Shown here: positions 22,112 to 61,370 of the stretch, one piece after another
Numbering within the stretch: position 1 is the first letter of the stretch
Layout of the letters: the number at the start of each line of letters is the position of its first letter
Source of the DNA: Luteimonas rhizosphaerae
Lineage (GTDB): Bacteria; Pseudomonadota; Gammaproteobacteria; Xanthomonadales; Xanthomonadaceae
Direction: 5' to 3'
NCBI RefSeq assembly: GCF_002849595.1
Contig: NZ_NRQR01000025.1
Coordinates: forward strand, 124,001-188,000
Length of the DNA: 64,000 bases
Program-made: the position numbers and the translations under genes
Notes under the pieces: generated by a model
What the model saw: the letters and a program-made list of their open reading frames with translations, nothing else
Database searches by the model: none
Told to the model about the DNA's origin: nothing

Positions 22112-23354
22112 TGCGGCCCGCCGTCGCGCCACGCGGCGACCGCGCGCGCGAAGCGCAGCACGTCGGCGTGGGTGTTGTAGAGCGGCACCGGCGAGATGCG
22201 TGGTCCGAGAGGAATTCGAACAGTGCGCGGCCCTGCGCGCGTCCACCGCGCACGCGCAGCGAGAGCTGGGCGCCGCGACGCGCCGGCAGGGCCGGCGTGA
22301 CGATCGCGAGCACGTCGTCGAGTTGCGCGCGGATCAGCGCCTCCAGGTAGCCGGTCAGGAGTTCGGACTTGCGGCGCAGCGCGGGCATGCCGGCGCGCGT
22401 GAACAGGTCCAGCGAGGCGCGCAGCGGCGCCAGGCCCAGGATCGGCGGGTTACTGAGCTGCCAGCCGTCGGCGCCGGGCGTGGGCTCGAAATCCGGGCCC
22501 ATCTGGAACCGCGTCGCCTGGTCGTGGCCCCACCAGCCGGCAAAACGCGGCCGGTCGGTCCGCGCATGGCGCGCGTGCACGAAGGCGCCGGCGACCGCGC
22601 CCGGTCCCGCGTTGAGATATTTGTAGTGGCACCAGACTGCGAAATCGGCGCCGCTGTCGTGCAGCTGCAGCGGCAGGTTGCCGACCGCATGCGCGAGATC
22701 GAACCCGACGACCGCGCCGGCGGCGTGACCCAGTCGAGTGATCTCGGCGAGGTCGAAGGCCTCGCCGGTGCGGTACTGCACGCCGGGCCACAGCACCAGC
22801 GCGAGCCGGTGGCCGTGTTCGGCGATCGCGGCGCCAATCGCGTCCGCGCCGAACAGCCCGTCTTCGCCGGGCGCCACCTCGATCAGATCGGTCGCCGGAT
22901 CGAAGCCGTGGAAGCGCACCTGCGATTCCAGCGCGTAGCGGTCCGACGGAAACGCGCCGGCCTCCATCAGGATCGCCGGGCGCTCGGCGGTCGGGCGGTA
23001 GAAGCCGACCAGCAGGAAATGCAGGTTCGCGGTCAGCGAATTCATCGCCACCACTTCTTCTGGTTGCGCGCCGACGACCTCGGCCAGCTGCGCGCCGAGC
23101 AGCGTGTGGTAGGTCATCCACTGCGAATTGCCGCGGAAGTGGCCTTCGACGGCTTCCATCGCCCACTTGTCGAGCACGTCCTCGACCTCGGCGCGGGCGC
23201 CACGCGGTTGCAGCCCCAGCGAATTGCCGACGAAATAGGCCTGCTCGACGTGGCCGAACTTCGGAATCAGGAAGTCCGCGCGCAGGGCGTGCAGCGGATC
23301 GGCGGCGTCGGCGTGCGCGGCGTAAGCGTCGGAGAACAGCTCGGAAACGGTCAT
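22108..23354 (-). pseudogene. kynU: Kynureninase with an internal deletion and frameshift
   Basis: Codons 1-385 read as a good kynureninase: QAYFVGNSLGLQPRGARAEVE, GHFRGNSQWMTYHTLL, the PLP lysine in CHYKYLNAGPGAVAGAF, FAGWWGHDQATRF and GAQLSLRVRGGRAQGRALFEFLSDH. Then near 22198-22200 the frame changes: the expected C-terminus ISPVPLYNTHADVLRFARAV and AAWRDGGPQ is encoded in another frame, ending at 22108 overlapping kmo as GTGA. Between the two pieces the family has about 13 residues of the type GVLxDWREPDVIR that are absent, including the Arg known to pair with the substrate carboxylate. The loss is one base over a multiple of three, so the in-frame product gains an unrelated tail into kmo. 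In the pathway it would make 3-hydroxyanthranilate. Real mutation or sequence error cannot be told here. Confidence 0.88.
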
Positions 23355-23430
23355 CGGTCAATCCGGAAACGGAGGGAGGCGCGGCATCGGCGCGAGGCGC
23401 CTGCGCACGTTGAAACGACACGCGGCGGCA

Positions 23431-24450
23431 TCACGCGAACCGCGACGCCGGCAGGCCCAGCCAGTCGAGCGCGGTGCCGTGGTAGAGCCGGGCGCGTGCG
23501 GCGTCGTCGAGGGGGATCTCCTCGATGCCGGCGCCCGGCACCTGCTCGCCGAGCGGGAAAGGATAGTCGGTGCCCAGCATCACCCGGTCGACGCCGCAGG
23601 TGTCGAGCAGGTACTGCAGCGCGCGCGGATCCGCGACCCAGGAATCGAAATACAGCTGGCGCAGGTAATCGCGCGGATTGTGCGGATTGTCGGTCGCGAC
23701 CAGGTCCGGCCGCATGTTGAAGCCGTGCTCGATGCGTCCGATCGTGTACGGAAAACTGCCGCCGCCGTGGGCCATGCAGATCTTCAGCTTCGGCAACCGC
23801 TGCAGCACGCCGCCGAACACCAGGCAGCAGGCGGCGCGCGACTGTTCGGCCGGCATGCCGACCAGCCAGGGCAGCCAGTATTTGGGCATCGAATCGGTGC
23901 CCATCATGTCCCAGGGGTGCACCAGCACCGCGGCGCCGAGATCCGCCGCCGCCTCGAAGAACGGAAACAGCTCGGGCGCATCGAGGTTCCAGTCGCCGAC
24001 ATGGCTGCCGATCTGCACGCCCTGCAGACCCAGCTGGTCGACGCAGCGTTCCAGTTCCTGGACCGCGAGCCGCGGCGACTGCAACGGCACCGTGCCGATG
24101 CCGGCGTAGTGGCGCGGATGCGCGGCGACGGTTGCGGCCATGTGGTCGTTGAGCGCCTGGTGCAGCTCCAGCGCGTGCTGCGGCTTCGCCCAGTAACTGA
24201 ACATCACCGGCACGGTGCTGATGACCTGCACCTGCACGCCGAAGCGCGCGTAGTCGTCGATGCGCTCCTGCGCGTCCCAGGTCTTGGACCAGATCTCGCG
24301 GAAGAAACGCCCGTCCTTGTAGATCCGGTGGCGTCCGTCCTCGGTGTGATGGATCACCGGAAAGCGGGTCTCGCCGTACCGCGTCGCCAGGTCCGGCCAG
24401 TCGCGCGGCAGATAATGGGCGTGGATGTCGATCTTCAGCATGCCGGTCAT
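23431..24450 (-). CDS. 2-amino-3-carboxymuconate-6-semialdehyde decarboxylase
   Basis: A 339-residue amidohydrolase-superfamily enzyme (ACMSD). It removes CO2 from the unstable ring-opened product of 3-hydroxyanthranilate, diverting carbon from quinolinate and NAD toward complete breakdown. The zinc site starts with KIDIHAHYLP (HxH), followed by GVQIGSHVGDWNLD, VLVHPWDMMGTDSM, CMAHGGGSFPYTIGRIEHGFNMRPDL and MLGTDYPFPLGEQVPG, which supply the remaining His and Asp ligands. Start is uncertain between the ATG at 24450 and that at 24441 (MLKIDIH); neither has a clear Shine-Dalgarno sequence. It lies between kynU and a small secreted-protein gene in the kynurenine cluster. Confidence 0.92.
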   Translation of the reverse strand: MTGMLKIDIHAHYLPRDWPDLATRYGETRFPVIHHTEDGRHRIYKDGRFFREIWSKTWDAQERIDDYARFGVQVQVISTVPVMFSYWAKPQHALELHQALNDHMAATVAAHPRHYAGIGTVPLQSPRLAVQELERCVDQLGLQGVQIGSHVGDWNLDAPELFPFFEAAADLGAAVLVHPWDMMGTDSMPKYWLPWLVGMPAEQSRAACCLVFGGVLQRLPKLKICMAHGGGSFPYTIGRIEHGFNMRPDLVATDNPHNPRDYLRQLYFDSWVADPRALQYLLDTCGVDRVMLGTDYPFPLGEQVPGAGIEEIPLDDAARARLYHGTALDWLGLPASRFA

Positions 24451-24498
24451 CGTAGTCGACCGGACCGCAGCGATCACGCCGCGGGTGCACAGCGCGGT

Positions 24499-25146
24499 TC
24501 AGGGCGTGGCGGGCGACGCGCGTCGCGCCTGGCGCAACTGTTCGATCGTCGGCGGGTCCGGATGCACGGATTGGCCCATCGATGCGGCCATCTCCGCGAC
24601 GCGGGCCTGTGTCTCGGCGAGTGGCGGCACGCCCATGCGCGCGCGCTCGGCATCGTCCACGGCGTCTTCCGCGACCGGGAACAGGAAGAAGCCGACCGCA
24701 TCGCCCTTGAACTGGGTGCCGTACCACTGCGGCTGCAACTGCGTGGTCAGGATCCGGTCCCAGGAGGCGGCGACCAGCCAGCGATACCGCATCTCGTCGG
24801 GCACCCGCGTGGACGCGACCGTCGCCAGCGCGTGCGCGATCCGGATGTCCTCGAGGCCCTGGCCGTGCTGGAACACCATCGCCGCGTGGTAGTGGTCCGG
24901 CGCGGTGCGCAGCGCGCCGTCACGCATCAGCGTGAGCACGCGTTCGCGGCGGCCGGCGTCCTCGCGCGACACGATCGACCAGTCGATGTCCGCCACCTTG
25001 CGGGCGTCCTGGTCCTCGCGGTACAGCGTCGCGAGTTCGGCGTTGTCCGCGTTGCCCGCGTCGGCGCTGTCCACGTCCCGGGCCTGCAGCGGCGCGCGCG
25101 TGGCGATCAGGCAGCACAGCAGAAACAGCAGCAGGGGTCGATGCAT
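24499..25146 (-). CDS. Exported protein, DUF6624-like
   Basis: A 215-residue protein with a signal peptide (LLLFLLCCLIATRAPLQARD). The mature part shows a D-rich segment ATLYREDQDARK, then VLTLMRDGALRTAPDHYHAAMVFQHGQGLEDIRIAHALATVA and RYRWLVAASWDRILTTQLQPQWYGTQF. That layout, with the HAAMxFQHG and AHxLA signatures, is the one I associate with the DUF6624 family, whose function is unknown. It is inserted between the 3-hydroxyanthranilate dioxygenase and the ACMSD gene on the same strand, 32 bases after the former, so it is likely co-transcribed with the kynurenine genes; no enzymatic role in that pathway is evident. Confidence 0.65.
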   Translation of the reverse strand: MHRPLLLFLLCCLIATRAPLQARDVDSADAGNADNAELATLYREDQDARKVADIDWSIVSREDAGRRERVLTLMRDGALRTAPDHYHAAMVFQHGQGLEDIRIAHALATVASTRVPDEMRYRWLVAASWDRILTTQLQPQWYGTQFKGDAVGFFLFPVAEDAVDDAERARMGVPPLAETQARVAEMAASMGQSVHPDPPTIEQLRQARRASPATP

Positions 25147-25178
25147 GCGTACGCTCCAGTCCCTTGGATCGTCGGGTC

Positions 25179-25727
25179 TCAGGTGATGTCCGCCTGCGAG
25201 TCCGCCTGCAGCTCGTAGCGGCTGGGGCGGGGATTGAGATGGCCGCAGGCCTGGCAGGTACGCAGCGCGTCGTCGCGGTAGAAGCGTTCGAACACCCGGA
25301 AGAAATCCTGCTCGATGTCGTCGAGATGGAAATACTCCTCGTAGACCTTGGCGTTGCAGCGCTCGCAGAACCACAGCAGGCCATCGTCCTCGTGCGGCAG
25401 GCGCCGGCGTTCGATGACCAGGCCGATCGAGCCCGGCCCGCGCTGCGGCGAGTGCGGCACCCGCGGCGGCAGCAGGAAGGTCTCGCCGGCGCGGATGGGG
25501 ATGTCGCGGACGCGGCCGTCTTCCTGGATCCGCAGCGTCATCTCGCCTTCCAGCTGGTGGAAGAATTCCGGGCCTTCCTCGAAGTGGTAGTCGGTGCGCG
25601 CGTTGGGGCCGCCGACGACCATGACGATGAAGTCGCCGTCGTAGATGCACTTGTTGCCGACCGGCGGCTCGAGCAGGTGGCGGTGCTCGTCGATCCACTT
25701 CTGGAAATTCAGCGGGGCGGGAATCAT
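25179..25727 (-). CDS. 3-hydroxyanthranilate 3,4-dioxygenase
   Basis: A 182-residue cupin that opens the ring of 3-hydroxyanthranilate to 2-amino-3-carboxymuconate semialdehyde using non-haem Fe(II). The start [23 protein letters not shown] is the family signature; the metal site is in [18 protein letters not shown] and [10 protein letters not shown]. The C-terminal half has the two CxxC pairs of the bacterial type, [14 protein letters not shown] and [16 protein letters not shown], forming a rubredoxin-like second iron site. The start at 25727 overlaps the stop of the RidA gene as ATGA; the upstream GGGGGAG, eight bases before the ATG, comes from an intergenic repeat. Complete in length and motifs. 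Confidence 0.94.
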
Positions 25728-26308
25728 GGGCGCTTCTCCCCCTCTCCCGCCTGCGGAAGAGGGCCGGGGTGAGGGTTCGTGGATAGAACGGCATTGGTAT
25801 GCACGTTGGGCTGCGCCCTCACCCCACCGTCGGCGTCGCCGACGGTCCCCCCCTCTCCCGCGGTGCGGGCGAGGGACGTCGGTTCGCGGCCTGCGGCCGC
25901 GATGCATTTGAGCTCGATAGCGATCGGTGTCGGCAGGGCGGTGATACCGAGCGTCGTCCGGCACGGCGCGCTGGCCGGGTCGGGGAAGTAGTCGGCCCAC
26001 ACGGCGTTGTAGGCGGCGAAATCGCCGGCCATGTCGGTCAGGTAGACGGTGACGTCCACCAGGTCCTCCCAGCGCGCGCCGCTGGCGTGCAGTACGGCGC
26101 GGACATTGGCGAACACCGCATGTGTCTGCGCGGCGATGTCGTGCGCGCGCAGAGCGCCGTCGGCATCGACGACGTTGCCCGGCACGGCATCGGTCGCCGG
26201 ATCGCGCGGGCCGATGCCCGACAGCAGCAGCAGATCGCCGACGCGGCGCGCATGCGGATACGCGCCGACGGGCGTCGGCGCCTGCGACGCGTGGATGGCG
26301 TCAGCCAT
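25724..26308 (-). CDS. RidA-family deaminase with a repeat-encoded C-terminal tail
   Basis: Residues 1-141 form a normal RidA/YjgF domain: [27 protein letters not shown] at the start, [20 protein letters not shown] in the middle, and [27 protein letters not shown] with the conserved Arg. In this context it is probably 2-aminomuconate deaminase, which acts after ACMSD and a semialdehyde dehydrogenase, as NbaF does in the 2-nitrobenzoate pathway (family knowledge). The remaining 53 residues, including [18 protein letters not shown], are encoded by intergenic repeat elements and are not part of any RidA domain. The frame stays open through the repeats and its stop overlaps the next gene. It overlaps the carbonic anhydrase end by eight bases. 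Confidence 0.82.
25734..25878. repeat. Two inverted intergenic repeat elements inside the ridA 3' end
   Basis: The first element (25734-25775) and the second (25816-25878) both consist of CTCACCCC-type and CCCTCTCCCGC-type blocks, facing opposite ways. The second includes a 21-base near-perfect palindrome at 25826-25846 with 10-pair arms ACCGTCGGCG and CGCCGACGGT. Such elements commonly occur between genes and yield [13 protein letters not shown]-like peptides when translated, exactly as here. Confidence 0.75.
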
Positions 26309-26975
26309 CGCGCCGGCCCCGCGCGGCCACCGTCGCGACTTCGGCCACCGCCGCCTCGTAGGCCGGGCCGATGGCGTCATACGACCCCACCTGCATGCCG
26401 AGTTCGCGCACGCGGCCGTCGCCCACGGCGTAGACCCAGCCGTGCACCGTCAGCGTCTGCCCACGCGCCCAGGCGTCGCGGACCACGGTGGTCTGGCAGA
26501 CGTTGAGCGCCTGCTCGATCGCATTGAGTTCGCACAGCCGCGCGTGGCGCAGCGCGGGATCCTCGACCGACGCCAGCAGGCCGGCATGCTTGTGCGCGAT
26601 GTCGGAGACATGCCGCAGCCAGTTGTCGACCAGCCCGACGCGGGCCCCGGTCATCGCCGCGTGCACGCCGCCGCAGCCGTAGTGGCCGACCAGCAGGATG
26701 TGCTCGATCTGCAGCACGTCGACGGCGAACTGGATCACCGACAGTGCGTTGAGATCGCCGTGCGACAGCACGTTGGCGATGTTGCGGTGGACGAACACTT
26801 CGCCCGGATCGAGACCGAGGATCTGGTTGGCGGGCACGCGCGAATCCGAACAGCCGATCCACAGGTATTTCGGCGCCTGCTGGTTCTCCAGCCGGTGGAA
26901 GAAATCCGGGTCCTCGGTGACGGCGCGCTCGGCCCAGTCGCGATTGCGTTGCAGGAGGTTGTCGAGTTCACCCAT
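26301..26975 (-). CDS. Beta-class carbonic anhydrase
   Basis: A 224-residue zinc enzyme interconverting CO2 and bicarbonate. Zinc ligands are in WIGCSDSRVPANQILG (Cys-Asp-Ser-Arg near residue 42) and VGHYGCGGVHAAM (His and Cys near residue 100); GEVFVHRNIANVL lies between. Length and pattern match the bacterial Can type. The start is the ATG at 26975 (MGELDNLLQRNRDWAER), which fits the family; the frame stays open further upstream but without homology. It is the first gene of the leftward block and overlaps ridA by eight bases, so it may be co-transcribed with the kynurenine genes, two of which release CO2 or consume oxygen; a role in trapping ACMSD-derived CO2 is only conjecture. Confidence 0.93.
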   Translation of the reverse strand: MGELDNLLQRNRDWAERAVTEDPDFFHRLENQQAPKYLWIGCSDSRVPANQILGLDPGEVFVHRNIANVLSHGDLNALSVIQFAVDVLQIEHILLVGHYGCGGVHAAMTGARVGLVDNWLRHVSDIAHKHAGLLASVEDPALRHARLCELNAIEQALNVCQTTVVRDAWARGQTLTVHGWVYAVGDGRVRELGMQVGSYDAIGPAYEAAVAEVATVAARGRRDG

Positions 26976-27115
26976 GGTGCGATTATTCCAGAGACGGGCC
27001 GGGGGGCTCCGGCCGGGAGGCATGCGCGTCGCAACGGAGCGTGTCGGCGACGGCGATGGATCGGACCGGGGACCGGTCGCGACGGGGTGTCAGCTTAACC
27101 GAGGCGGTCGCCGGA

Positions 27116-27925
27116 TCAGTGCTGGCAGCCGGGGCACCAGTACAGGCGCCGCGCGGCGATCCGCTCGTTGACGACGGTGCCGTCGCAGCGCGGGCACGGC
27201 AGGCCTTCGCGCTCGAACACGCGCAGCTTGAAGATCGCTTTCGTGTGTTCGAGGTAGTCCTTGTCCGGCGGCACCTGGGCGCGGTGCTTGGCGCGATAGC
27301 TGCGGCGCGGCACGTCGAGCAGGGCATTGGCAAGGCGGCGCCGCTCGCCGGCGGCGAGGTCGCCCGCCGTGCGGTGCGGCGACATCTTCGCCTGGTAGAG
27401 CACCTCCGAGCGGAGGTAGTTGCCCATGCCGGCGGCGAAGGCCTGGTCGAGCAGCAGCACCGCCAGCGCCCGCCGCGCGAACGCCGGGGCCTGCATGTGC
27501 GCGACCAGGGCCGCGGCGTCGACGGCCGGGTCCAGCACGTCCGGGCCGAGCTTGGCGAGATAGGGCTGGGTGTCGAGCGCGTCGGTCTTCCACAGCGACA
27601 CCGACGGCGCCGCGTACAGCGCGGCCGCGCCGCGCGCCGTCACCAGCAGCACCCGCGGCTGGGCCTCCGAGGTGAGGGCATCGACATCGTCGACGATCCG
27701 CCAGAACCCCAGCAGATGGTTGTGCGAGTACAGCGTCCAGCCGCCGTCGACCGCGGTCAGCATCGCCTTGCCGCGCGCCTGCACGGCGAGCACGCGCTTG
27801 CCGCGCAGCACACGTCGGCGCCGCTGCAGCGCGGGATCCTTGAAGCGCACGTCGACGAGGAGCTCGCCCGCCAGTGCGGCGGCGAGCTGGTCGGCGGCGT
27901 AGTGGATTTCGGGGCCTTCGGGCAT
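27116..27925 (-). CDS. nei: Endonuclease VIII (DNA glycosylase of the Fpg/Nei family)
   Basis: A 269-residue base-excision repair glycosylase/AP lyase. It begins MPEGPEIHYAADQLAAAL, with the catalytic Pro-2 and Glu-3, has the Lys-containing VLAVQARGKAMLTAV, and the helix-two-turn-helix region LLLDQAFAAGMGNYLRSEVLYQAKMSP. The C-terminal zinc finger is CPRCDGTVVNERIAARRLYWCPGC. The MPEGPEI start and residue pattern favour Nei, which removes oxidised pyrimidines, over MutM (which starts MPELPEV). It is downstream of an SDR gene by 69 bases on the same strand and about 140 bases upstream of the carbonic anhydrase start. Confidence 0.9.
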   Translation of the reverse strand: MPEGPEIHYAADQLAAALAGELLVDVRFKDPALQRRRRVLRGKRVLAVQARGKAMLTAVDGGWTLYSHNHLLGFWRIVDDVDALTSEAQPRVLLVTARGAAALYAAPSVSLWKTDALDTQPYLAKLGPDVLDPAVDAAALVAHMQAPAFARRALAVLLLDQAFAAGMGNYLRSEVLYQAKMSPHRTAGDLAAGERRRLANALLDVPRRSYRAKHRAQVPPDKDYLEHTKAIFKLRVFEREGLPCPRCDGTVVNERIAARRLYWCPGCQH

Positions 27926-27994
27926 CGCGGCATCAGAGCAGCGCCCTCGTGGCGGCGACGTGAGGCGTGCAGCCGGGGAGCCCGGGCTGCGATT

Positions 27995-28780
27995 TCAGAT
28001 CGACGCCATGCGCCCGCCGTCGACGGCCAGACTCACGCCGTTGATGTAGGCCGCCGCCGGCGCGCACAGGAACGCGATCACGCCGCCGGTTTCGGCAGGC
28101 GTGGCGAACCGGCCCGCCGGCACGTTCGCGCGCATGGTCGCGAGGATCTCGTCGGCGCTCTTGCCGGTCGCCGCGACGCGGTCCCGCACGATCTGGTCGA
28201 TGCGGCCGGTCTCGGTGTAGCCGGGCAGCACGTTGTTGACGGTGATGCCGTCGGGCCCGAGTTCGCGCGACAGGGTCTTGGCCCAGCCCGCGACCGCGCC
28301 GCGGATGGTGTTCGACACGCCGAGGCCCGCGATGGGCTCGCGCACCGAGGTCGAGACCACGTTGACGATGCGGCCCCAGCGCGCCGCGCGCATCGCCGGC
28401 AGCACCGCCTGCACCAGCACCTGCCCAGCGAGCAGATGCCGCTGGAAGGCGTCGGTGTACGCAGCGAGCGGCGCGGTGTGCGCGGGGCCGCCCGGCGGCC
28501 CGCCGGTGTTGTGGATCAGGATCTGCACCGGCTGCGCGGTCACATGCGCGGCGACCGCGGCCTGCAACGCCGCCGCATCGGCCATGTCGACGGCGAGGAC
28601 ATGGTGCGGCTGGCCGCGCGGACGGGGCAGCGCATCGGCCACGGTCTGCAGCGCCGCGTCGCGCCGCGCGAGCACGGTGACCGACGCGCCGAGCAGCGCG
28701 AGTTCGTGCGCGGTCGCGCGTCCGATGCCGTCGGACGCACCGCAGACCAGAGCGTGGCGGCCTTCGAGATCGAGATCCAT
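27995..28780 (-). CDS. SDR-family oxidoreductase with altered catalytic motif
   Basis: A 261-residue Rossmann-fold protein with the SDR cofactor motif GASDGIGRATAHE and the NNAG-equivalent LIHNTGGPPGG. The catalytic Ser is in VNVVSTSVREPIAG, but the usual YxxxK is replaced by SNTIRGAVAGWAK: Asn or Ser stands where Tyr would be and Arg where Lys would be, as in a divergent SDR subfamily that I recall as FabG-like. Oxidoreductase activity is therefore doubtful without another proton donor. The end AAYINGVSLAVDGGRMAS is a normal SDR close. A GGAG Shine-Dalgarno precedes the start by eight bases and the upstream PaiB-like gene ends one base away. Confidence 0.85.
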   Translation of the reverse strand: MDLDLEGRHALVCGASDGIGRATAHELALLGASVTVLARRDAALQTVADALPRPRGQPHHVLAVDMADAAALQAAVAAHVTAQPVQILIHNTGGPPGGPAHTAPLAAYTDAFQRHLLAGQVLVQAVLPAMRAARWGRIVNVVSTSVREPIAGLGVSNTIRGAVAGWAKTLSRELGPDGITVNNVLPGYTETGRIDQIVRDRVAATGKSADEILATMRANVPAGRFATPAETGGVIAFLCAPAAAYINGVSLAVDGGRMASI

Positions 28781-28781
28781 G

Positions 28782-34035: not shown

Positions 34036-34037
34036 GG

Positions 34038-40066: not shown

Positions 40067-40519
40067 ATGCAACTGATTCTTCTGCAGAAGGTCACCAATC
40101 TCGGCAACCTCGGCGACAAGGTCAACGTGAAGCCGGGCTACGGCCGTAACTTCCTGGTGCCGCAGGGCAAGGCCGTGCCGGCGACCCCGAAGAGCATCGC
40201 CGAGTTCGAAGCGCGCCGCGCCGAGTACGAAGCCAAGGCCCAGTCGCAGCTCGACGAGGCGCAGCAGCGCCTGGCCAAGCTGGAAGGCGCCAGCGTCACG
40301 ATCTACGCGAACGCGTCGACCGAAGGCAAGCTCTATGGCTCGGTCGGTCCGCGCGAGATCGCGCAGGCGCTGACCAAGGCCGTCGCGCCGGTCGAGAAGT
40401 CGGAAGTCGTGCTGGGTGAAGGCGCGTTCCGCAACACCGGCGAATTCGATGTCGTCGTGCACCTGCACGCCGATGCCGAGACCACCGTCAAGGTCGTCAT
40501 CGAAGCCGAACCCGCCTGA
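40067..40519 (+). CDS. rplI: 50S ribosomal protein bL9
   Basis: A 150-residue L9 with the N-terminal rRNA-binding domain [37 protein letters not shown], the central helix [26 protein letters not shown] and the C-terminal domain [19 protein letters not shown]. Length is standard. It ends with a terminator hairpin 22 bases downstream, so rpsF-rpsR-rplI form one operon. Confidence 0.97.
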
Positions 40520-40541
40520 TCCCACCGGATCCTGGCGGTTC

Positions 40542-40574
40542 ACGACGGGCGCCGCGAGGCGCCCGTCGTCGTTT
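40542..40574 (+). terminator. Rho-independent-type terminator after rplI
   Basis: A perfect 12-pair stem, ACGACGGGCGCC (40542-40553) and its complement at 40558-40569, closes a GCGA loop and is followed by CGTTTG with only three Ts. It is placed 22 bases after the rplI stop. The weak T run makes it less certain as an intrinsic terminator. Confidence 0.75.
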
Positions 40575-40620
40575 GCGGGCCGTGCCCGTCGCGCCCGGCG
40601 AGACGCCGGCGCGCTAGAAG

Positions 40621-40673
40621 TTACCCACCGCTGGCCGCGGCTTATCCACAGCTTGTGGGGTCGCGTGTCCACA
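40621..40673 (+). promoter_or_regulatory. Cluster of DnaA-box-like sites upstream of dnaB
   Basis: TTATCCACA at 40642-40650 is a perfect consensus DnaA box. On the same strand TTACCCACC (40621-40629) and GTGTCCACA (40665-40673) match it at seven of nine positions. Start-to-start distances are 21 and 23 bases, about two helical turns. The cluster lies 91-143 bases before dnaB. Confidence 0.6.
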
Positions 40674-40763
40674 GGCGCCGGGTCTAGCATCGACCGCCGT
40701 TGCGCCATCACAGCGGCGCGCCACCCGCCGGGTCAGGCGCGCCTCGCGAGGAACCGTTCCACC

Positions 40764-42125
40764 ATGTCCGCACGCCCCGAATACCGTCCCGAGCACCGCA
40801 CCGACGCACGCGTCGAACAGCTGCGCATTCCGCCGCAGTCGGTCGATGCGGAGCAGGCGGTGCTCGGCGGCCTGATGCTGGTCCCCGATTCCTACGACCG
40901 CATCGCCGACATGCTGGTGCCGGACGACTTCTACCGCCGAGACCACCAGAAGATCTACGCCGCGATCCAGGAACTGGCCGAGAAGAACAAGCCCTTCGAC
41001 GCGGTGACCCTCGGCGAATGGTTCGAATCCAACAACCTGTCGGAACTGGTCGCCGGCGGCGCCTATCTCGGCGAGCTGGCCAGCACCACGCCGTCGGCCG
41101 CCAACATCCGTGCCTATGCGGAGATCGTCCGCGACAAGGCGATCCTGCGGCAGCTGATCGAGGTCGGCACCGAGAACGTCAACGACGGCTTCCAGCCCGA
41201 TGGCCGCGACAGCAGCGAGATCCTCGCCAAGGCCGAGCAGCAGGTCTTCAAGATCGCCGAAGCCGGCTCGGCGGGCCGCACCGACTTCACCGCGATCAAC
41301 AAGGCGATGGCCGACGCCTTCGACGTGCTGCAGACGCGCTACAACAACGGCGGCGGCGTGACCGGCCTGCCGACCGGCTACACCGAGTTCGACGAGATGA
41401 CCGCCGGCCTGCAGCCGACCGACCTGCTGATCCTCGCCGCGCGTCCGGCCATGGGCAAGACGACCTTCGCGCTCAACATCGCCGAATACGCCGCGATCAA
41501 GACCAAGAAGGCGGTCGGCGTGTTCTCGATGGAAATGTCGGCCAGCCAGCTCGCGCTGCGCCTGATCTCGTCGAACGGCCGCATCAATGCGACCCGCCTG
41601 CGCACCGGCCAGCTCGAGGACGAGGACTGGAGCCGGGTCAGCGGCGCGATCCGCATGCTGAAGGAAACCAAGATCTTCATCGACGACACGCCCGGCCTGT
41701 CGCCGGACGTGCTGCGCGCCAAGTGCCGCCGCCTCAAGCGCGAGCACGACCTCGGCCTGATCGTCATCGACTACCTGCAGCTGATGGCGGTGCCGGGCAA
41801 CAGCGAGAACCGCGCGACCGAGATCCTCAACGTGCCGGTGATGGCCCTGTCGCAGCTCAACCGCTCGCTGGAAACGCGCGCCGACAAGCGCCCGGTGATG
41901 GCCGACCTGCGCGAATCGGGCGCGATCGAGCAGGACGCCGACGTCATCGTCTTCATCTACCGCGACGACTACTACAACAAGGAAAACTCGCCCGACCAGG
42001 GCCTGGCCGAGATCATCATCGGCAAGCAGCGTAGCGGCCCGACGGGCTCGCTGAAGCTGAAGTTCTTCGGCGAGTACACCCGCTTCGACAACCTGTCGCA
42101 CGATTCGATCGGCAGCTTCGAGTAA
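40764..42125 (+). CDS. dnaB: Replicative DNA helicase, with a 13-residue internal gap
   Basis: A 453-residue DnaB, the hexameric helicase that unwinds DNA at the replication fork and is loaded by DnaA and its loader. The N-terminal domain (PQSVDAEQAVLGGLMLVPDSYDRIADML) and RecA-like domain are clear: ILAARPAMGKTTFALNIA (Walker A near residue 230), LIVIDYLQLM (Walker B near 335), and ALSQLNRSLETRADKRPVMADLRESGAIEQDADVIVFIYRD. However, between NRATEI and LNVPVMALSQLN the family has about 13 extra residues of the type SEISRSLKALAKE, a conserved helix. Here they are absent, in frame, at 41825/41826 (residue 354), and the total length is shorter than E. coli DnaB (471). An essential helicase without this helix is doubtful. 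ATG at 40764 fits homologues. Confidence 0.93.
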   Translation: MSARPEYRPEHRTDARVEQLRIPPQSVDAEQAVLGGLMLVPDSYDRIADMLVPDDFYRRDHQKIYAAIQELAEKNKPFDAVTLGEWFESNNLSELVAGGAYLGELASTTPSAANIRAYAEIVRDKAILRQLIEVGTENVNDGFQPDGRDSSEILAKAEQQVFKIAEAGSAGRTDFTAINKAMADAFDVLQTRYNNGGGVTGLPTGYTEFDEMTAGLQPTDLLILAARPAMGKTTFALNIAEYAAIKTKKAVGVFSMEMSASQLALRLISSNGRINATRLRTGQLEDEDWSRVSGAIRMLKETKIFIDDTPGLSPDVLRAKCRRLKREHDLGLIVIDYLQLMAVPGNSENRATEILNVPVMALSQLNRSLETRADKRPVMADLRESGAIEQDADVIVFIYRDDYYNKENSPDQGLAEIIIGKQRSGPTGSLKLKFFGEYTRFDNLSHDSIGSFE

Positions 42126-53378: not shown

Positions 53379-55583
53379 TTACTGCGTCGCGTCCGCCGGA
53401 TCCGGCGCGAGACCGCGCTTGATCAGCAGCGGCTCGATCTTCGGCTCGTGGCCGGTGAAATCGACGAACAGCTGCTTGGCATCCTTGCTGCCGCCCTGCG
53501 ACAGCAGCGTGCTGCGGAAGCGGTCGCCGTTCTCGCGCGTCAGGCCGCCGTTCTGCTCGATCCACTGGACGGTGTTCGCGTCCAGCACTTCCGACCAGAT
53601 GTAGGCGTAGTAGCCGGCCGCGTAGCCACCGTTGATGTGGCTGAAGTACGGCGTGCGGTAGCGCGGCGGCACCGGCGCGTAGTCGAGGCCGGCGGCCTTG
53701 AGCGCGGCGGCTTCGGTGGCCATGACCTCGGATCCCGAGGGCAGCTGGTCGGCCGGCAGCTGGTGCAGGTACTGGTCGAGCATCGCCGAGCCCAGGTATT
53801 CCGTGGTCGCGAAGCCCTGGTTGAACTTGGCGGACGCCTGCACCTTCTCCAGCAGCTCGGCCGGCATCGGCGCGCCGGTGCGGTAATCCTTGGCGTAGTT
53901 CGCCAGCACTTCCGGCCAGTCGGCCCACATCTCGTTGACCTGCGACGGGAACTCGACGAAGTCACGCGGCACGCTGGTGCCGCTGAAGAACGGGTACTTC
54001 ACGTCCGAGAACATGCCGTGCAGCGAGTGGCCGAACTCGTGGAACATCGTCGTCACTTCGTCCCAGGTCAGCAGCGTCGGCTGGCCGGCCTGCGGCTTGG
54101 GGATGTTCTGGTGGTTGGCCGTGACCGTCAGCGTGCCTTCCAGCTCCGACTGCGACACGTACGAGTTCATCCACGCGCCGCCACGCTTGGAAGCGCGCGC
54201 GTAGGGATCGTAGATGAAGATCGCCAGCTGGCTGCCGTCTTCGTTGAAGACGTCGTAGGTCCAGGTGTCGGGGTGGTACTTCGGCAGGTCGGTCCGCTCG
54301 GGGAAGGTCAGGCCGTAGAGCTTGGTCGCAGCGAAGAACACGCCATTCTCGAGCACGTTCTTCATCTCGAAGTAGGGCTTGAGCTGCGCGTCGTCGAAGC
54401 TGTACTTGTCCTGGCGGACTTTCTCGGTGTAGTAGGCCCAGTCCCACGGCTCGAGCTGGAACGTCGGCTCGCCCTTGGCCGCCTGTTCTCGGTCGATCAT
54501 GGCCTGCAGTTCGGCGGCTTCGAGCTTGGCATTGGCGACGGCGGCCGGTGCCAGCTGGCCCAGCATGTCGTTGACGGCCTCGACGGTGCCGGCGGTCGAA
54601 TCCTCGAGGATGAAGGTCGCCTGGTTCGGGTAGCCCATCAGGTTCGCGCGTTCGGCGCGGAGCTTGAGGATCTCGGCGATGACCTCGGTGTTGTCGTACT
54701 GGTTGCCACGGCTGCCGCGGGCGACGGAGGCCTTGTGGATGCGCTCGCGCAGCTCGCGGTTGTGGATCTGCGGCAGGGGCGGCTGGCCGGTGGTGTTGAG
54801 CAGGGTGATGACGTACTTGCCCTCGAGGCCGCGCGACGTCGCTTCTTCGGCGGCGGCGGCGATCTGGCCTTCGCTCATGCCATCGAGCTCTTCGACGGTG
54901 TCGACGACGACGGCCGAATCGTTGACTTCGTTGAGCACGTTCTGGCTGAAGGTCGTGCCGAGCTTCGCCGACTCGGCGTTGATGCGGCGCATCTCGTCCT
55001 TCTGCGCTTCGGTCAGGTTGGCACCGGCGCGGACGAACATGGTGTGGTAGCGCTCGACGAGGCGCTGGCCCTCGGCGTCGAGGCCCAGGTCACCGACGTT
55101 CTTGTAGAGCGTGTCGACGCGGGCGAACAGCGCCGGGTTGAGCATGATCGCGTCGCGGTGCGCGGCGAACTTGGGCGCGTAGTCGGCGTCGATCTTCTTG
55201 CGGGCGTCGTTGGTGTCGGTGCCGTTGAGGGCGCCGAAGATGCGACGGGCACGCGACAGGACTTCACCGGACGTCTCCAGCGCGATGATCGTGTTGTCGA
55301 AGGTCGGCGCTTCGGGATTGTTGGCGATCGCCTCGATCTCTCGCAGGTTTTCGGCCATGCCCGCATCGAACGCCGGCGCGAAGTGCGCGTCCTGGATCTG
55401 GTCGAAATGGGGATAGCGGAGGTCCAGCGTGCTCTCGACGAACAGCGGATTGTCGGAAGGCTGGCGGTCCGACATCGACGTGCTGGCGGCGGGCGCCGGG
55501 GTGCCGGTGGACTGGGCGAAGGCGGGCAGCGCGGAGACGGCGAGGGCGGCGCACAGGGCGGCGGCGAGCGGGTGCTTCAGCAA
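53379..55583 (-). CDS. M3-family peptidyl-dipeptidase (Dcp-like), exported
   Basis: A 734-residue thimet-type zinc peptidase. Catalytic HEFGH is in TTMFHEFGHSLHGMFSDVKYP near residue 520, followed by the downstream Glu in GTSVPRDFVEFPSQVNEMW. The M3 helices DAIMLNPALFARVDTLYKN, YHTMFVRAGANLTEAQKDEMRRINAE and the C-terminal MSHINGGYAAGYYAYIWSEVLDA fold are complete. A signal peptide (KHPLAAALCAALAVSALPAFA) predicts export. The start is a TTG at 55583 because a GGAGAG Shine-Dalgarno lies five bases upstream and it leaves a normal signal peptide. It cleaves dipeptides or short peptides in the periplasm. Confidence 0.92.
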   Translation of the reverse strand: MLKHPLAAALCAALAVSALPAFAQSTGTPAPAASTSMSDRQPSDNPLFVESTLDLRYPHFDQIQDAHFAPAFDAGMAENLREIEAIANNPEAPTFDNTIIALETSGEVLSRARRIFGALNGTDTNDARKKIDADYAPKFAAHRDAIMLNPALFARVDTLYKNVGDLGLDAEGQRLVERYHTMFVRAGANLTEAQKDEMRRINAESAKLGTTFSQNVLNEVNDSAVVVDTVEELDGMSEGQIAAAAEEATSRGLEGKYVITLLNTTGQPPLPQIHNRELRERIHKASVARGSRGNQYDNTEVIAEILKLRAERANLMGYPNQATFILEDSTAGTVEAVNDMLGQLAPAAVANAKLEAAELQAMIDREQAAKGEPTFQLEPWDWAYYTEKVRQDKYSFDDAQLKPYFEMKNVLENGVFFAATKLYGLTFPERTDLPKYHPDTWTYDVFNEDGSQLAIFIYDPYARASKRGGAWMNSYVSQSELEGTLTVTANHQNIPKPQAGQPTLLTWDEVTTMFHEFGHSLHGMFSDVKYPFFSGTSVPRDFVEFPSQVNEMWADWPEVLANYAKDYRTGAPMPAELLEKVQASAKFNQGFATTEYLGSAMLDQYLHQLPADQLPSGSEVMATEAAALKAAGLDYAPVPPRYRTPYFSHINGGYAAGYYAYIWSEVLDANTVQWIEQNGGLTRENGDRFRSTLLSQGGSKDAKQLFVDFTGHEPKIEPLLIKRGLAPDPADATQ

Positions 55584-55776
55584 GAGGACTCTCCAGTGGA
55601 CTTGACTCCCTAGGCTAGCCGATCGGGCGTGAGCACGACCCATGCCAGAAGGCCCGTACGCAAATCGCGTTCGAGATCATGGATTTGAGCCGATGTATTC
55701 AAGTGGATTGTGACGCTGCGATCGCTTCCGGGCCGGGAAGCGGCACAATCGCGGCTCCCCGCTCGAGGCCCGGCCG

Positions 55777-56262
55777 ATGACCACGCTCCACGATTTCAGC
55801 ATCACCACGCTCGATGGCGCGCCGCTGCCGCTCGCGGGGTACCGGGGCCAGGTCGTGCTGATCGTCAACGTCGCCTCCCGCTGTGGTTTCACGCCCCAGT
55901 ACGCAGGCCTGCAGCAGCTGTGGCAGGACTACCGGGAGCGTGGTCTGGTCGTGCTGGGCTTCCCCTGCGACCAGTTCGGCCACCAGGAACCCGGCGACGC
56001 GGCCGAGATCCGCGCGTTCTGCTCGCTGCGATACGCCGTCGACTTCCCGATGTCCGCCAAGATCGACGTCAACGGCGCCGGCGCCGATCCGCTGTGGGCC
56101 TGGCTGAAGGCCGAGAAGGGCGGCTTCCTCGGTCTCGACGCGATCAAATGGAACTTCAGCAAGTTCCTCGTCGGCCGCGATGGCCGGGTGCGCCGGCGCT
56201 ATGCGCCGACGGTCGCGCCCGACGCCCTGCGGGCCGACATCGAGGCGGCGCTCGCCGACTGA
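55777..56262 (+). CDS. Glutathione peroxidase-type thiol peroxidase
   Basis: A 161-residue peroxidase of the GPx/BtuE family. The catalytic Cys is in NVASRCGFTPQYAGLQQLW near residue 36, Gln in LGFPCDQFGHQEPGD near residue 70 and Trp in IKWNFSKFLVGRDG near residue 130, the usual catalytic triad. Reduces hydroperoxides with thioredoxin or glutathione. Complete in length. Divergent from the M3 gene by 193 bases and convergent with the universal stress protein gene. Confidence 0.93.
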   Translation: MTTLHDFSITTLDGAPLPLAGYRGQVVLIVNVASRCGFTPQYAGLQQLWQDYRERGLVVLGFPCDQFGHQEPGDAAEIRAFCSLRYAVDFPMSAKIDVNGAGADPLWAWLKAEKGGFLGLDAIKWNFSKFLVGRDGRVRRRYAPTVAPDALRADIEAALAD

Positions 56263-56293
56263 CGGGCGGGCGGGCAATGCCGCTGCGCAGCGC

Positions 56294-56716
56294 TCAGCGG
56301 ACGATCGTCACCGGGATCGAGGTCTGGGCGATGACCTTGCTCGACACCGAGCCCAGCAGCACGCCCTTGACCGCGCCGCGGCCGTGCGAGCCCATCACCA
56401 GGAGGTCGACCTTGCGCTTGGCTGCGACCGCCAGGATGGTCTCGGCGATCTCGCCTTCGGCGCGGACTTCCTCGACCGGCACCTGGGTGCGGCCCAGCGC
56501 CTTGCGCGCGATCTTCAACGCGTGCTCGTGGTTGTCGGCGTGGTAGCTCTGCACCGCTTCCTTGCCGATACGGCGCTCCACGCCGGGGAAGATCGGCGGA
56601 TCCACGTGCAACACGGCGACGCTGGACGCCGTGGCGGATTGCTTGGCGAGCTTCAGGGCGAACTTGAGGGCCCGCGAACTGATGTCGCTGCCGTCGACGG
56701 TGACGAGGATCTTCAT
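56294..56716 (-). CDS. Universal stress protein (UspA family)
   Basis: A 140-residue Usp domain. It starts KILVTVDGSDISSRALKFALKLAKQ and ends in the ATP-binding motif LLVMGSHGRGAVKGVLLGSVSSKVIAQTSIPVTIVR, whose G-2x-G-9x-G-(S/T) pattern is intact. ATG at 56716 gives the normal start. Usp proteins respond to starvation and oxidative or membrane stress; the partner is unknown. It converges on glutathione peroxidase. Confidence 0.94.
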   Translation of the reverse strand: MKILVTVDGSDISSRALKFALKLAKQSATASSVAVLHVDPPIFPGVERRIGKEAVQSYHADNHEHALKIARKALGRTQVPVEEVRAEGEIAETILAVAAKRKVDLLVMGSHGRGAVKGVLLGSVSSKVIAQTSIPVTIVR

Positions 56717-56761
56717 GGGCCGCTCCGGTGGAAGTCGCATCGAGTGTACGGCCTGCGTCGG

Positions 56762-57556
56762 CTATTTCTCGACGAACGCCCGCTCGAACACGTAGTGCCC
56801 CGGCGTGCCGATGCGGGGCGCGGCCTCGAAGCCGCGGCGATCGAGCAGCTGGCGGAAATCGGCCAGCATCTGCGGGCTGCCGCAGATCATCGCGCGGTCG
56901 TGGGCGGGGTCGAGCGGGGGCAGGCCGAGGTCGGCGGCCATGCGGCCGCTGTCGAGCATCTCGGTCAGGCGGCCGCGATGGTCGCGCCCGGCGAACGCGA
57001 AGGGCTCGCGGGTGACCGCCGGGTAATACAGCAGCTTCTCGGCGATCTGCTCGCCAAGGAACTCGTGCTGCGGCAGTTCGTTGACGATGTAGTCGCGGTA
57101 GGCGAGATCCCGGGCCGTGCGCACGCCGTGGGTCACGACAATGCGTTCGAAACGCTCGTAGGTCTCGGGATCCTTGATCAGCGACAGCCACGGCGCGAAG
57201 CCGGTCCCGGTGCCGAGCAGGTACAGGGTCCGGCCCGGCAGCAGGTCGTGCAGCAGCAGCGTGCCGGTCGGCTTGCGGCCGATCAGCACCTCGTCACCGG
57301 GACGGATGCGCTGCAGGCGCGAGGTCAGCGGCCCGTTGTCGACCTTAATGCTGAAGAACTCCAGCTGCTCCTCCCAGTTCGCGCTCGCGATCGAATACGC
57401 GCGCAGGATCGGCTTGGCCTCGGTCTGCAGGCCGATCATCACGAACTGGCCGTTGTCGAAGCGGAAGCCGTCGTCGCGGGTCGTGGTGAAGCTGAAGTAA
57501 TCGTCCGTCCAGTGACGGACATCCAGCACCGTTTCGGTGCCAAAGGCAGCGGACAT
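56762..57556 (-). CDS. fpr: Ferredoxin/flavodoxin-NADP reductase
   Basis: A 264-residue FAD enzyme that transfers electrons from NADPH to ferredoxin or flavodoxin. The FAD-binding site is FENGQF-like RFDNGQFVMIGLQ and LRAYSIASANWEEQLEFFSIK; then LLGTGTGFAPWLSLIKD, VTHGVRTARDLAYRDYI, and MICGSPQMLADFRQLLDRRGF; the C-terminus VFERAFVEK is identical in pattern to the Azotobacter-type Fpr. ATG at 57556 gives MSAAFGTETVLDV. A 19-base inverted repeat lies 42 bases upstream of the start and may be its operator. Confidence 0.94.
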   Translation of the reverse strand: MSAAFGTETVLDVRHWTDDYFSFTTTRDDGFRFDNGQFVMIGLQTEAKPILRAYSIASANWEEQLEFFSIKVDNGPLTSRLQRIRPGDEVLIGRKPTGTLLLHDLLPGRTLYLLGTGTGFAPWLSLIKDPETYERFERIVVTHGVRTARDLAYRDYIVNELPQHEFLGEQIAEKLLYYPAVTREPFAFAGRDHRGRLTEMLDSGRMAADLGLPPLDPAHDRAMICGSPQMLADFRQLLDRRGFEAAPRIGTPGHYVFERAFVEK

Positions 57557-57597
57557 AAGGGGAGGGTGTCGAACAGAAGGCGCCATCATACCAGAGC

Positions 57598-57616
57598 GAT
57601 GAGAGCGGTTCTCATC
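57598..57616. promoter_or_regulatory. Perfect 7-5-7 inverted repeat upstream of fpr
   Basis: GATGAGA, GCGGT, TCTCATC forms a perfect seven-base inverted repeat around a five-base centre, 42 bases upstream of the fpr start and on its promoter side. It resembles an operator for a dimeric regulator, with about nine of nineteen positions in common with the classical Fur box; the regulator is unknown. Confidence 0.45.
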
Positions 57617-57647
57617 TCGATGGGTTCCGGTGCCCCCGGTCGCGCAG

Positions 57648-57707
57648 CGCGCTCGTGCGCGATGGGGTAGCGGGACGGATCACGCCGGCGCGCACATGCG
57701 CACCGAC
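57648..57707 (-). repeat. Diverged copy of the intergenic element at 17.6 kb
   Basis: Read on the minus strand this has GTCGGTGCGC (57698-57707), GCGCG, TCCGT and CATCGCGC (57657-57664) in the same order as the forward element at 17621-17685. The stretches between are different, so it is either an old repeat copy or coincidence in GC-rich DNA. Confidence 0.4.
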
Positions 57708-57719
57708 GCGATCCCGCGA

Positions 57720-59320
57720 TCAATGCGGACCGCGCTCCTCGTCCGGCTTCGCCCGCTTGTCCCCGAGCAGGGCACTGAGCACGATCGCGATGCCGAGCCC
57801 GGCGCCCGTCACGAACAGCAGCAGCGCGATCGCCGGGTACCCGAGCAGGCGCGGACCGCCCTCGTTGTCCATCATCAGCGCCGACGCGAGGATCAGCGCG
57901 GCGGTGACGATGCCGGCCGCGATGCGGTTGGCGATCTTGTGCATGCTTTCGAACAGGTGCGATTCCTCGAGCCCGGTCAGGCGGACCCGCAGCCGGTTCT
58001 CCGACAGCAGCGACAGCACGTTCGACACCTTGCGCGGCGCGTCGCGCACCAGCTCCTGCATGTCCATCATCTCGCTGGCGAGATTGGCCGGCGACAGCGA
58101 CTTGCGCAGGCGCTGGCGCATCATGTTCTGCAGGTGGTCCTCGACGACCCGCTTCATGTCGAGCTCGGGGTCGAGCACCTCGACCACCGCAGGCTCATCT
58201 CCGGCGCCGTGCGCAGGCCGCAGGCCGTCGCCATGCGCACCAGGTCGAGCATCAGCCGGCCTTCCGACTGGCCGGTGACGCCTGAGCGCGCGGCGTAACG
58301 GGCGACCATCTGGCCGACATCGCGGTAGTAGCGCTCCTCGTCGAAATCCTCCAGGCGCGTGCCCAGGGCGATGCCCTCGGCGGCGACCTGCTCGCCACGG
58401 CCGTCGACGGCGGCGAACAGCAGTTTCAGCAGTCGCTCGCGGGTGCGCGGCGGCACGTGCGCCACCATGCCCAGATCGAGCAGCGCCAGGCGACCGTCGC
58501 GGGTGTAGAGCAGGTTGCCCGGGTGCGGGTCGGCGTGGATCTCGCCGTGGACGAACACCTGGTCCAGATAGCCGTGCAGCAGCGCCGTCGCGACCGGCAC
58601 CATGTCGTGCTCGGTGCGCTGCAGGCCGGTGATGTCGGTGACCTTGGTGCCCTTGACCAGCTCCATCGTCAGCAGACGCGGCCGGGTCAGGTCCCAGATC
58701 GGCTTGGGCACGAACAGCATCGGGTAGTCGGCGAAATGGGCGTCGAACCGGTCCAGGTTCTCGGCCTCGATGCGATAGTCCAGCTCGGCCAGCAGGGTGC
58801 GGCGGAACTCGTGCACCCAGTCGGCGAAGCGGATGCGCCGGCCGATGTCGGTGACGCGATCGACGCCCCCGGCCAGGCGCGCCAGCGAGTCGAGATCGTC
58901 GCGGATCTGATCGATGATGCCCGGCCGCTGCACCTTGACCGCGACCTCGCGTCCGTCGCGCAGCGTCGCCCGGTGCACCTGCGCCAGCGACGCGCTGCCC
59001 AGCGGGGTCTCGTCGAAGGTGTCGAAGACCTTGCTGATGCGGACCGCGACGTCGTCCTGCATCCGCTCCAGCGCGGCGAGGTAGGCCGGCGGCACCATGT
59101 CGGGCCGGGTCGACAGCGCCTGGCCGATCTTGATGAAGGTGGGGCCCAGCGCTTCGAGATCGTCGACGAAGGCCTCCGGCTTGCCGTCCTCGGTGGTGTC
59201 CGCATCGCCTATGGCGGCGGCATCCGCGTCGAAGCCGCTGAGGACGCCCGCCTGGCGGTACTTGATGAGGAAGCGCAGGATCTGGGCATTGCGCGCGATC
59301 GCGCGGCTGGTCTCGGTCAT
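57720..59320 (-). pseudogene. ubiB: UbiB/ABC1-family kinase-like protein, broken by two deletions
   Basis: The 5' half reads as UbiB, an atypical kinase needed for ubiquinone synthesis: IKIGQALSTRPDMVPPAYLAALERMQDDVA, SASLAQVHRATLRDGREVAVKVQRPG, FVHGEIHADPHPGNLLYTRDGRLALLDLGMV. Two gaps break it. At 59044/59045 (residue 92) about 16 residues expected between QDDVA and VRISKVFDTF are missing in frame. Near 58190 (residue 377) a 28-base loss, 1 mod 3, removes LLGKTLLNLD-type codons and shifts frame; the tail from AVVEVLDPELDMKRVVEDHL to the two C-terminal membrane helices is in another frame and ends at 57720. As read, the product stops at 58154. The start at 59320 has a GGAG eight bases upstream. 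See the deletion findings. Confidence 0.88.
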
Positions 59321-59561
59321 CGATGGCACTCCGTTCGTGGCCGCCAGCCTACGCAGGCAGGCGTCAACGGCGACTCACGGGATCGCAGGTGGTGGGCGTC
59401 GCAACGGATCGACGTTGCACGAAGGGAGTCGCGCACACTCCTATAGGCGACGATCGCCTTCGTCTTCAGCACCGCGATTGTAAGAGCGCGCTCGCGCGAC
59501 ATGCCTCAGCTCAAACGCGCGTGCGCGTGACGTCATCCGATCGGACACCCGCGCAAGCCCG
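59321..59561. other. Intergenic region between the ABC exporter and ubiB
   Basis: 241 bases between the ubiB start and the end of the ABC exporter, both on the minus strand and transcribed away from it to the left. No conserved frame was accepted; a short GC-rich frame on the plus strand looks spurious. The ubiB promoter must lie here but was not identified. Confidence 0.4.
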
Positions 59562-61370
59562 TCAGCGATATCCTGCCGCCTGCAGCTCGAACAGCTCGGC
59601 GTAGCGGCCGCCCTGGGCCATCAGTTCGGCATGCGTGCCGCTGGCCTCGATGCGCCCCTGCTCCAGCACCAGGATGCGGTCGGCCATGCGCACGCTGGAG
59701 AAGCGGTGCGAGATCAGGATCGCCGTGCGCTCTTCCGCGGTGGGTTCGTCGAGGATCATCACCTGTGCCTCGCGCATGTAGGCGCGGGCGATGGCGATCT
59801 TCTGCCACTGGCCGCCGGACAGGTCGACGCCGGTCTTGAAGCGGCGGCCGATCAGCTGGTGGTAGCCGTCGGGCAGGCCGGCGATGAGGTCGTCGGCCAT
59901 CGAGCGCCGGGCGGCGTCCTGGATGCGCGACGCATCGCCCATGGCCTCGATGCGGCCGACGCCGATGTTCTCGCCCGCGGTCAGGTGGTAGCGCACGAAG
60001 TCCTGGAAGATCACGCCGGTGTTCGCGCGCAGCGCGTCGAGGTCGTACTCGCGCAGGTCGCGGCCGTCGAGCAGGATCCGGCCCTCGTCGGGGTCGTACA
60101 GCCGCGCCAGCAGCTTCACCAGCGTGGTCTTGCCGGCGCCGTTCTCGCCGACCAGGGCCAGCACTTCGCCGGCCTGCAGGGTGAAATCGAGATGCCGCAC
60201 CGCCCAGCGCTCCGCGCCGGGATAACGGAAACCCACGTTCTCGAACACGAAGCCGGTGCGGATCGGTTGCGGGAACGGCACCGAATCGGCGGGTGACGTG
60301 ATCTCGGGTTCGATCGCAAAGAACGAGAACAGATCATCGAGATACAGCGCCTGGCCGGCGACCTGCGAGAACCCGACCAGCAGACTTTCCAGCAACTGGC
60401 GCAGTCGGCGGAAGCTGCCGGCGAGGAAGGTCAGATCGCCGATCGTGAAATCGCCGCGCACCGTGCGCCAGGCGATGTAGGCGTAAGCGACGTAGTAGCC
60501 CAGGGTGCCGAGCGCGGCCAGCAGCGTGCCCCAGATCGCGCGCCGTCGTGCCAGCGAGCGGTTGGCCAGGAAAAAGCCGTCGGCGAGCGTGCGGTATCGG
60601 TCGATCAGGAACCGGTGCAGGCCGAAGATCTTGACCTCTTTCGCCGTCTCCAGACTGGCGCCGGTCTGGCGCACGTATTCCAGCTGGCGGCGCTCGGGCG
60701 TCCACTGGAAGTTGAGCGTGTAGCCGAGCGCGTTGAAATGCGATTCGCCGATGAAGGCCGGGATCAGCGCGATCGCCAGCAGCAGGATCAGCCACGGCGC
60801 GTAGACCATCAGGCCGATGGCGAAACTCACCACCGTGATCGCATCCTGCACCTGGCCGAACAGCTGGCCCATCAGGTTCATGCGACCCATCGTCTGCCGG
60901 CGCGCGCGGTCGAGCTTGTCCTGCAGCTCGGGATCCTCGAAATCCTCGAGGTCGAGCGTCGCCGCGTGTTCCATCAGACGCACGCTGGTCGCGTTGGTGA
61001 ACAGCTCCGACAGCAGATTGTCGGCGTAGCTGACCATGCGCCCGAGCAGATCGGAGCCGATCGCCAGGCCGAATTCCAGCGCGAGCAGCCAGGCCAGATG
61101 ATCGAGCGCGCCGCCGTTCCACGCGGTGGCGAGATCGTCGAAGGCGATGCCCGCGCCGACCAGGCGGATCGCCTCGTCGATGATCAGCTTGCCGATGTAG
61201 AGCATCACCACCGGCAGGAACGCGCGGACCAGGCGCAGGCCGAGACTCAACAGGGTGAGGCCACGACTGGTGTGCCAGATCATGCGCAGGAACGGGCGCA
61301 GGTTGCGCAACGCGTCCAGTCGTTCGCGGAAGCTCGGCGTGGCGGATGCAGTCCTGTGCGCAGGGGTCAT
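59562..61370 (-). CDS. ABC exporter (permease-ATPase fusion) lacking its D-loop segment
   Basis: A 602-residue half-transporter with six transmembrane segments in residues 30-330 and a nucleotide-binding domain. Walker A is LVGENGAGKTTLVKLL near residue 395, Q-loop IFQDFVRYHLTAGENI, signature LSGGQWQKIAIARA, Walker B VMILDEPTA near residue 541, then H-loop ISHRFSSVRMADRILV. Between EPTA and the H-loop the family has about 18 residues starting (S/A)ALD (the D-loop); here EPTA is followed directly by EERTAILISHRFS. The break is in frame at 59735/59736. Loss of the D-loop would impair ATP hydrolysis by the dimer. The rest is complete, resembling lipid or peptide exporters. Substrate unknown. Confidence 0.9.
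   Translation of the reverse strand: MTPAHRTASATPSFRERLDALRNLRPFLRMIWHTSRGLTLLSLGLRLVRAFLPVVMLYIGKLIIDEAIRLVGAGIAFDDLATAWNGGALDHLAWLLALEFGLAIGSDLLGRMVSYADNLLSELFTNATSVRLMEHAATLDLEDFEDPELQDKLDRARRQTMGRMNLMGQLFGQVQDAITVVSFAIGLMVYAPWLILLLAIALIPAFIGESHFNALGYTLNFQWTPERRQLEYVRQTGASLETAKEVKIFGLHRFLIDRYRTLADGFFLANRSLARRRAIWGTLLAALGTLGYYVAYAYIAWRTVRGDFTIGDLTFLAGSFRRLRQLLESLLVGFSQVAGQALYLDDLFSFFAIEPEITSPADSVPFPQPIRTGFVFENVGFRYPGAERWAVRHLDFTLQAGEVLALVGENGAGKTTLVKLLARLYDPDEGRILLDGRDLREYDLDALRANTGVIFQDFVRYHLTAGENIGVGRIEAMGDASRIQDAARRSMADDLIAGLPDGYHQLIGRRFKTGVDLSGGQWQKIAIARAYMREAQVMILDEPTAEERTAILISHRFSSVRMADRILVLEQGRIEASGTHAELMAQGGRYAELFELQAAGYR

Follow-up and report, generated by a model that had tools for sequence, protein, structure and literature searches.

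Five short gaps in kynU, dnaB, ubiB and an ABC exporter gene of Luteimonas rhizosphaerae, very probably part of an assembly-wide class of short omissions

The window, meaning the whole stretch of 64,000 nucleotides that was analysed (G000:C31:124001-188000), belongs to an assembly (G000) that totals 3,643,456 bases over 34 contigs, with completeness rated at 100% and contamination at 0.06%. The nearest named relatives are Luteimonas and Lysobacteraceae isolates. The window was compared with the congeners G007, which consists of one contig, and G008, both collinear with much of it. The original prediction that one segment each is absent from kynU, dnaB and an ABC exporter gene, and two from ubiB, was borne out by a three-way comparison of these assemblies, the missing lengths being 37, 39, 54, and 28 and 48 nt, respectively. 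The flanks of all five gaps were clean in alignments against relatives.

The kynureninase gene kynU (ORF 21906..23354, minus strand) carries a 37-nt frameshifting gap at junction 22198..22199, located by alignment to G008 and G007. Past this junction the ORF runs in the wrong reading frame, and NCBIfam model TIGR01814 covers only residues 13-385 of its 482. The replicative helicase gene dnaB (ORF 40416..42125, plus strand; NF006443/TIGR00665) is 13 codons short, with an in-frame gap of 39 nt placed at 41826..41827 by alignment to the same two congeners, both of which (G007 and G008) read SEISRSLKGLAKEL at that junction. The listed dnaB ORF begins some 114 residues ahead of where the family match starts, and the true start probably lies further in. 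No second DnaB was found in a PF03796 search of the genome, so that the single dnaB is the damaged one.

The remaining three gaps were located by alignments to relatives and congeners. Two lie in ubiB (ORF 58154..59329, minus strand), where a 28-nt frameshifting gap at 58189..58190 gives the ORF an early end and a 48-nt in-frame gap at 59044..59045 shortens it; the TIGR01982 score of this ORF is 273 bits, below the cut-off of 487.55. The ABC exporter ORF (59562..61370, minus strand; PF00005), whose top NCBIfam match is TIGR02203 (MsbA), under its cut-off, is without the 18 codons immediately past the DEPT motif. This 54-nt in-frame gap is real as originally described, with its position corrected from 59736 to 59734..59735.

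In the 75,127 bases aligned to both congeners, exactly five gaps of 10 nt or more were specific to G000, each of the same length against G007 as against G008. The same test returned a single G008-specific gap, of 12 nt, and no gap specific to G007. Because 46,930 of these bases lie within the window and the other 28,197 on the remainder of C31, this result alone is silent on whether the loss is local or wider.

Relatives sharing the gaps had been proposed as a sign of natural variation, and for the ubiB and exporter gaps none was found among the alignable loci of 80 named relatives; gaps common to relatives were thus ruled out for these two genes. Both ubiB pieces were present in 10/10 named relatives aligned, and the exporter piece in 7/7. 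Across the 80 loci, the 28-nt ubiB piece was carried by 79 (in the remaining one the two sides could not both be aligned), the 48-nt piece by all 80, and the 54-nt exporter piece by every one of the 24 alignable loci, the other 56 being not alignable. An all-against-all gap scan was then run on these loci together with 18 kb of the window, covering 700,841 bases for which three or more comparators were available. A stricter form of the scan missed both ubiB gaps, and the flank identity thresholds were loosened to 0.70 and 0.65. The loosened scan recovered the three window gaps (ubiB 28 and 48 nt, exporter 54 nt). At a flank identity of 0.70 the only other lineage-specific gaps of 15-80 nt, over about 687 kb, were one of 16 nt in L056 (near 9562) and one of 27 nt in L078 (near 14040), and at 0.65 three in-frame gaps of 15-21 nt were added in L003, L006 and L041.

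The survey was extended to 1,278,132 bases of G000 (window included) against 1,420,000 congener bases. Of the G000 bases, 635,923 aligned to one or both congeners, and about 625 kb were comparable. Flanks were required to be at least 76% identical, and gaps with a further net gap in their 40-column flanks were removed. Frameshifting gaps of 15-60 nt numbered 12 in G000 vs 1 in G008 (528,556 aligned bases), 10 in G000 vs 0 in G007 (334,263 aligned bases), and 0 vs 0 between G008 and G007 (255,528 aligned bases); G008 had one additional frameshifting gap longer than 60 nt. After merging, 30 distinct G000 gaps of at least 15 nt remained, and 25 once in-frame gaps shorter than 25 nt were removed. 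The five in-frame gaps thus dropped (15-21 nt) appear natural, since G008 itself has five in-frame gaps of 15-24 nt. Also dropped were those admitted only by other flank thresholds, namely a 28-nt gap in a slyD-like gene, a 33-nt gap in secF, and the gaps at C10 57926, 74025 and 75403.

The search for similar gaps elsewhere in the assembly, which had been suggested as a check, was therefore positive, with 25 gaps (five of them in the window) or 4.0 per 100 kb; extrapolated to the full assembly, this is about 146 (Poisson range 94-215). Thirteen of the 25 were covered by both congeners, and nine of these 13 were above threshold in both; at the 28-nt ubiB gap G007 and G008 were in agreement in the three-way comparison. 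Against G007, cysS (C15 242078) and the event at C31 213799 failed the gap test, the extra piece in cysS being visible by hand in a broken alignment and that at C31 213799 being doubtful on the same reading. There were no Ns in the 1,278,132 G000 bases. Gaps of 1-2 nt were no commoner in G000 (10) than in G008 (10), which indicates that the rest of the assembly is apparently accurate. Larger size differences between collinear blocks went in both directions. Locus L189, mapped against G000, gave no match.

Comparison of the other contigs showed that the losses are not limited to the four genes of the window. Family searches with the intact congener proteins named recA, dxr, bamA, cysS and mnmG among the affected genes, together with genes for a Pit-type phosphate transporter, SpoU-type and Methyltrn_RNA_2 methyltransferases, a gamma-glutamyltranspeptidase, an SBF-family transporter and an amino-acid permease. 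From reading of the sequence, a TonB receptor (two gaps), two M13-type peptidases, a molybdopterin oxidoreductase and slyD are putatively affected as well; the slyD candidate had no Pfam match at 1e-10. For recA, bamA, dxr and mnmG, each event was scored against a single congener, the other having no aligned stretch at that site. The bamA break (29 nt) was confirmed independently of the congener, as the BamA family model matched in two pieces (positions 1-239 and 250-727) lying in different frames, the second half forming an open frame of 624 aa. The other bamA match in the genome, on C7, scored 127 bits, below the 297 cut-off, so that the damaged bamA is the only one above the cut-off. In Gram-negative bacteria, dnaB, bamA, dxr and cysS are essential genes.

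The gaps were indifferent to reading frame. The net frame was shifted in 16/25 events, in 14 of the 23 that are 25 nt or longer (P 0.66 in a binomial test against 2/3), and in 14/21 of these longer gaps with the TonB receptor set aside; two-thirds frameshifting is the expectation absent selection on frame. Among gaps of 4-14 nt in the congeners, 17/19 were multiples of three (four comparisons summed). The affected genes contained 14 stops in 13,531 in-register codons, counted over 24 event rows in which two genes appear twice; C25 92555 received no ORF. Eleven distinct stops were located, seven of them ahead of the likely start as we read it, two at the final codon and two internal. One of the internal stops is codon 377 in the TonB receptor gene; the other is codon 149 in the gene at C15 248006, whose strand assignment is doubtful. 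Little of the further decay expected of natural pseudogenes was seen, and the second half of bamA is open.

These observations bear on the reading that takes the sequence at face value, in which the sequenced strain itself would have undergone true deletions through mutation and ordinary pseudogene formation. The blunt junctions with 0-3 nt of microhomology are compatible with end joining, as in deletions by the NHEJ pathway. True deletions of that kind face selection in essential genes, whereas the G000 gaps ignore both frame and essentiality: the only dnaB and the only bamA above cut-off are hit, along with dxr and cysS, and the downstream parts of the genes are mostly still open. With the class nearly absent from the two congeners and from the loci of 80 named relatives, this reading is very improbable.

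The 25 gaps had a mean length of 36.0 nt (s.d. 10.4, range 17-60 nt). Twenty distinct frameshifting gaps were 4 nt or longer, and their lengths deviated from a fitted exponential (bootstrap P 0.003), as did those of the 17 that reach 15 nt (P 0.0008); only three of the 20 were of 4-14 nt. These lengths do not fit N-free joining over random coverage gaps, from which exponential lengths with many short gaps would be expected. Poor contig ends were rejected. Flank identity did not drop toward the junctions, being 83-93% per 5-base step out to 40 bases from the break, with 87% and 89% in the five bases adjoining it.

The peaked, bounded lengths suit a physical process better than they do random coverage gaps, and one such process would be loss of segments from library molecules (for example by a polymerase skipping hairpins or passing between repeats), followed by faithful assembly. 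Hairpin-prone GC-rich sites had been offered as the cause, and this is not supported by the data. Folding of the missing segments against their surroundings gave a mean z of 0.02 over 24 events, 11 of them below zero, which is no hairpin excess, and the GC content was 0.67 in the segments against 0.68 in the flanks, by which GC extremes were rejected. Direct repeats, also proposed for checking, did not exceed chance: microhomology at the junctions was 0-3 nt, with a mean of 1.03 over 36 alignments, in which an event aligned to G007 as well as G008 is entered twice, vs 0.83 for cuts placed at random in C31 (P 0.17). No base preference was visible by eye over eight positions at each end of the 25 events. 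The remark that three of the five window segments contain GCGGT or its complement did not hold for the segments of G008, one of which has it, with about one expected. A library or amplification artefact, as one kind of artefact, is unlikely.

Frame-blind, bounded and motif-less cuts also resemble a mechanical operation, such as editing or file processing of the genome copy after deposition. The congeners G007 and G008 come from the same collection and are without the class, and alteration at that stage is quite improbable.

Two further readings would give the pattern a biological or partly biological origin. In one, a cellular process would cut out chromosomal segments of about 36 nt, the missing information being supplied by other genome copies or by repair at the RNA level. 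The peaked size, the blunt joins and the presence of essential genes among the targets are what such a process might produce, but almost nothing similar was seen in the congeners and no sequence signal was visible by eye at the boundaries. The assembly also had no match to a degenerate pattern written for the dnaB stretch that is missing, a weak test in that the pattern matched only 5/16 DnaB loci. Cellular excision is scarcely credible on this evidence. The broader proposal of a cellular or library-level process removing blunt segments of about 36 nt (17-60) at about 150 places, with full copies kept elsewhere, is extremely improbable.

The preferred reading is that the five gaps form part of a class of short omissions distributed across one assembly, and that the organism itself is without these losses; this is held with high confidence. 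A common cause acting on a bounded size class, and an artefact, had been proposed from the window, and the proposal was strengthened by the wider survey. The losses are almost confined to one assembly (the ubiB and exporter gaps absent from the alignable loci of 80 relatives, the class near zero in G007 and G008), they are blind to frame, and they damage the sole dnaB and the one bamA above cut-off, single-copy genes whose essentiality is background knowledge. It is therefore the sequence, rather than the organism, that appears to be without the pieces, and full-length genes would be present in the cells. Pieces of about 36 nt (17-60) would have been omitted regardless of frame or sequence, with the two sides abutted directly. 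The step at fault is less certain; most likely, contigs or reads flanking a short unread stretch would have been joined end to end without Ns. The peaked gap length is the one observation that a plain coverage-gap artefact leaves unexplained.

Assembly and scaffolding errors of draft genomes resemble the present gaps in being found in one assembly only, in ignoring frame, in striking essential genes and in leaving the neighbouring sequence clean. The usual errors in draft genomes are 1-nt indels, repeat collapses and gaps of Ns, and these differ from the peaked, N-free losses of 17-60 nt seen here. No description of such a loss was found in a literature search of titles and the beginnings of abstracts. 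The Kastor report (PMC12007338) deals with errors that fragment genes in long-read assemblies and ascribes them to higher read error rates. These errors are like the present ones in that frameshifts in a single assembly are exposed by comparison of relatives, and they differ in that G000 is without an excess of 1-2 nt gaps.

An assembly rated 100% complete can accordingly hold an estimated 150 or so broken genes that resemble biology, having no Ns, clean edges and sometimes an intact frame. Annotation or gene-loss studies based on G000 would wrongly list recA, bamA, dnaB and other genes as pseudogenes. The proportion of clean lineage-specific gaps that shift the frame provides a cheap check for assemblies of this kind.

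Gaps of 25 and 42 nt lie 310 bases apart in one TonB-receptor-like gene (G000:C29:60447 and 60757; locus L232). They are net in-frame, the sequence there is less conserved, and the gene has an internal in-register stop; as the two gaps restore the frame, the gene may merely have diverged, and its gaps may reflect natural divergence rather than the same artefact. Three pairs of gaps lay within 1 kb of each other, where 0.86 would be expected (P 0.05), and there was no significant clustering at 3 or 8 kb; the 1-kb result was not relied on because this possibly natural pair is included. Gaps of 17 nt (G000:C15:32076) and 35 nt (G000:C25:92555) lie in two different M13-peptidase-like genes, which is probably a coincidence.
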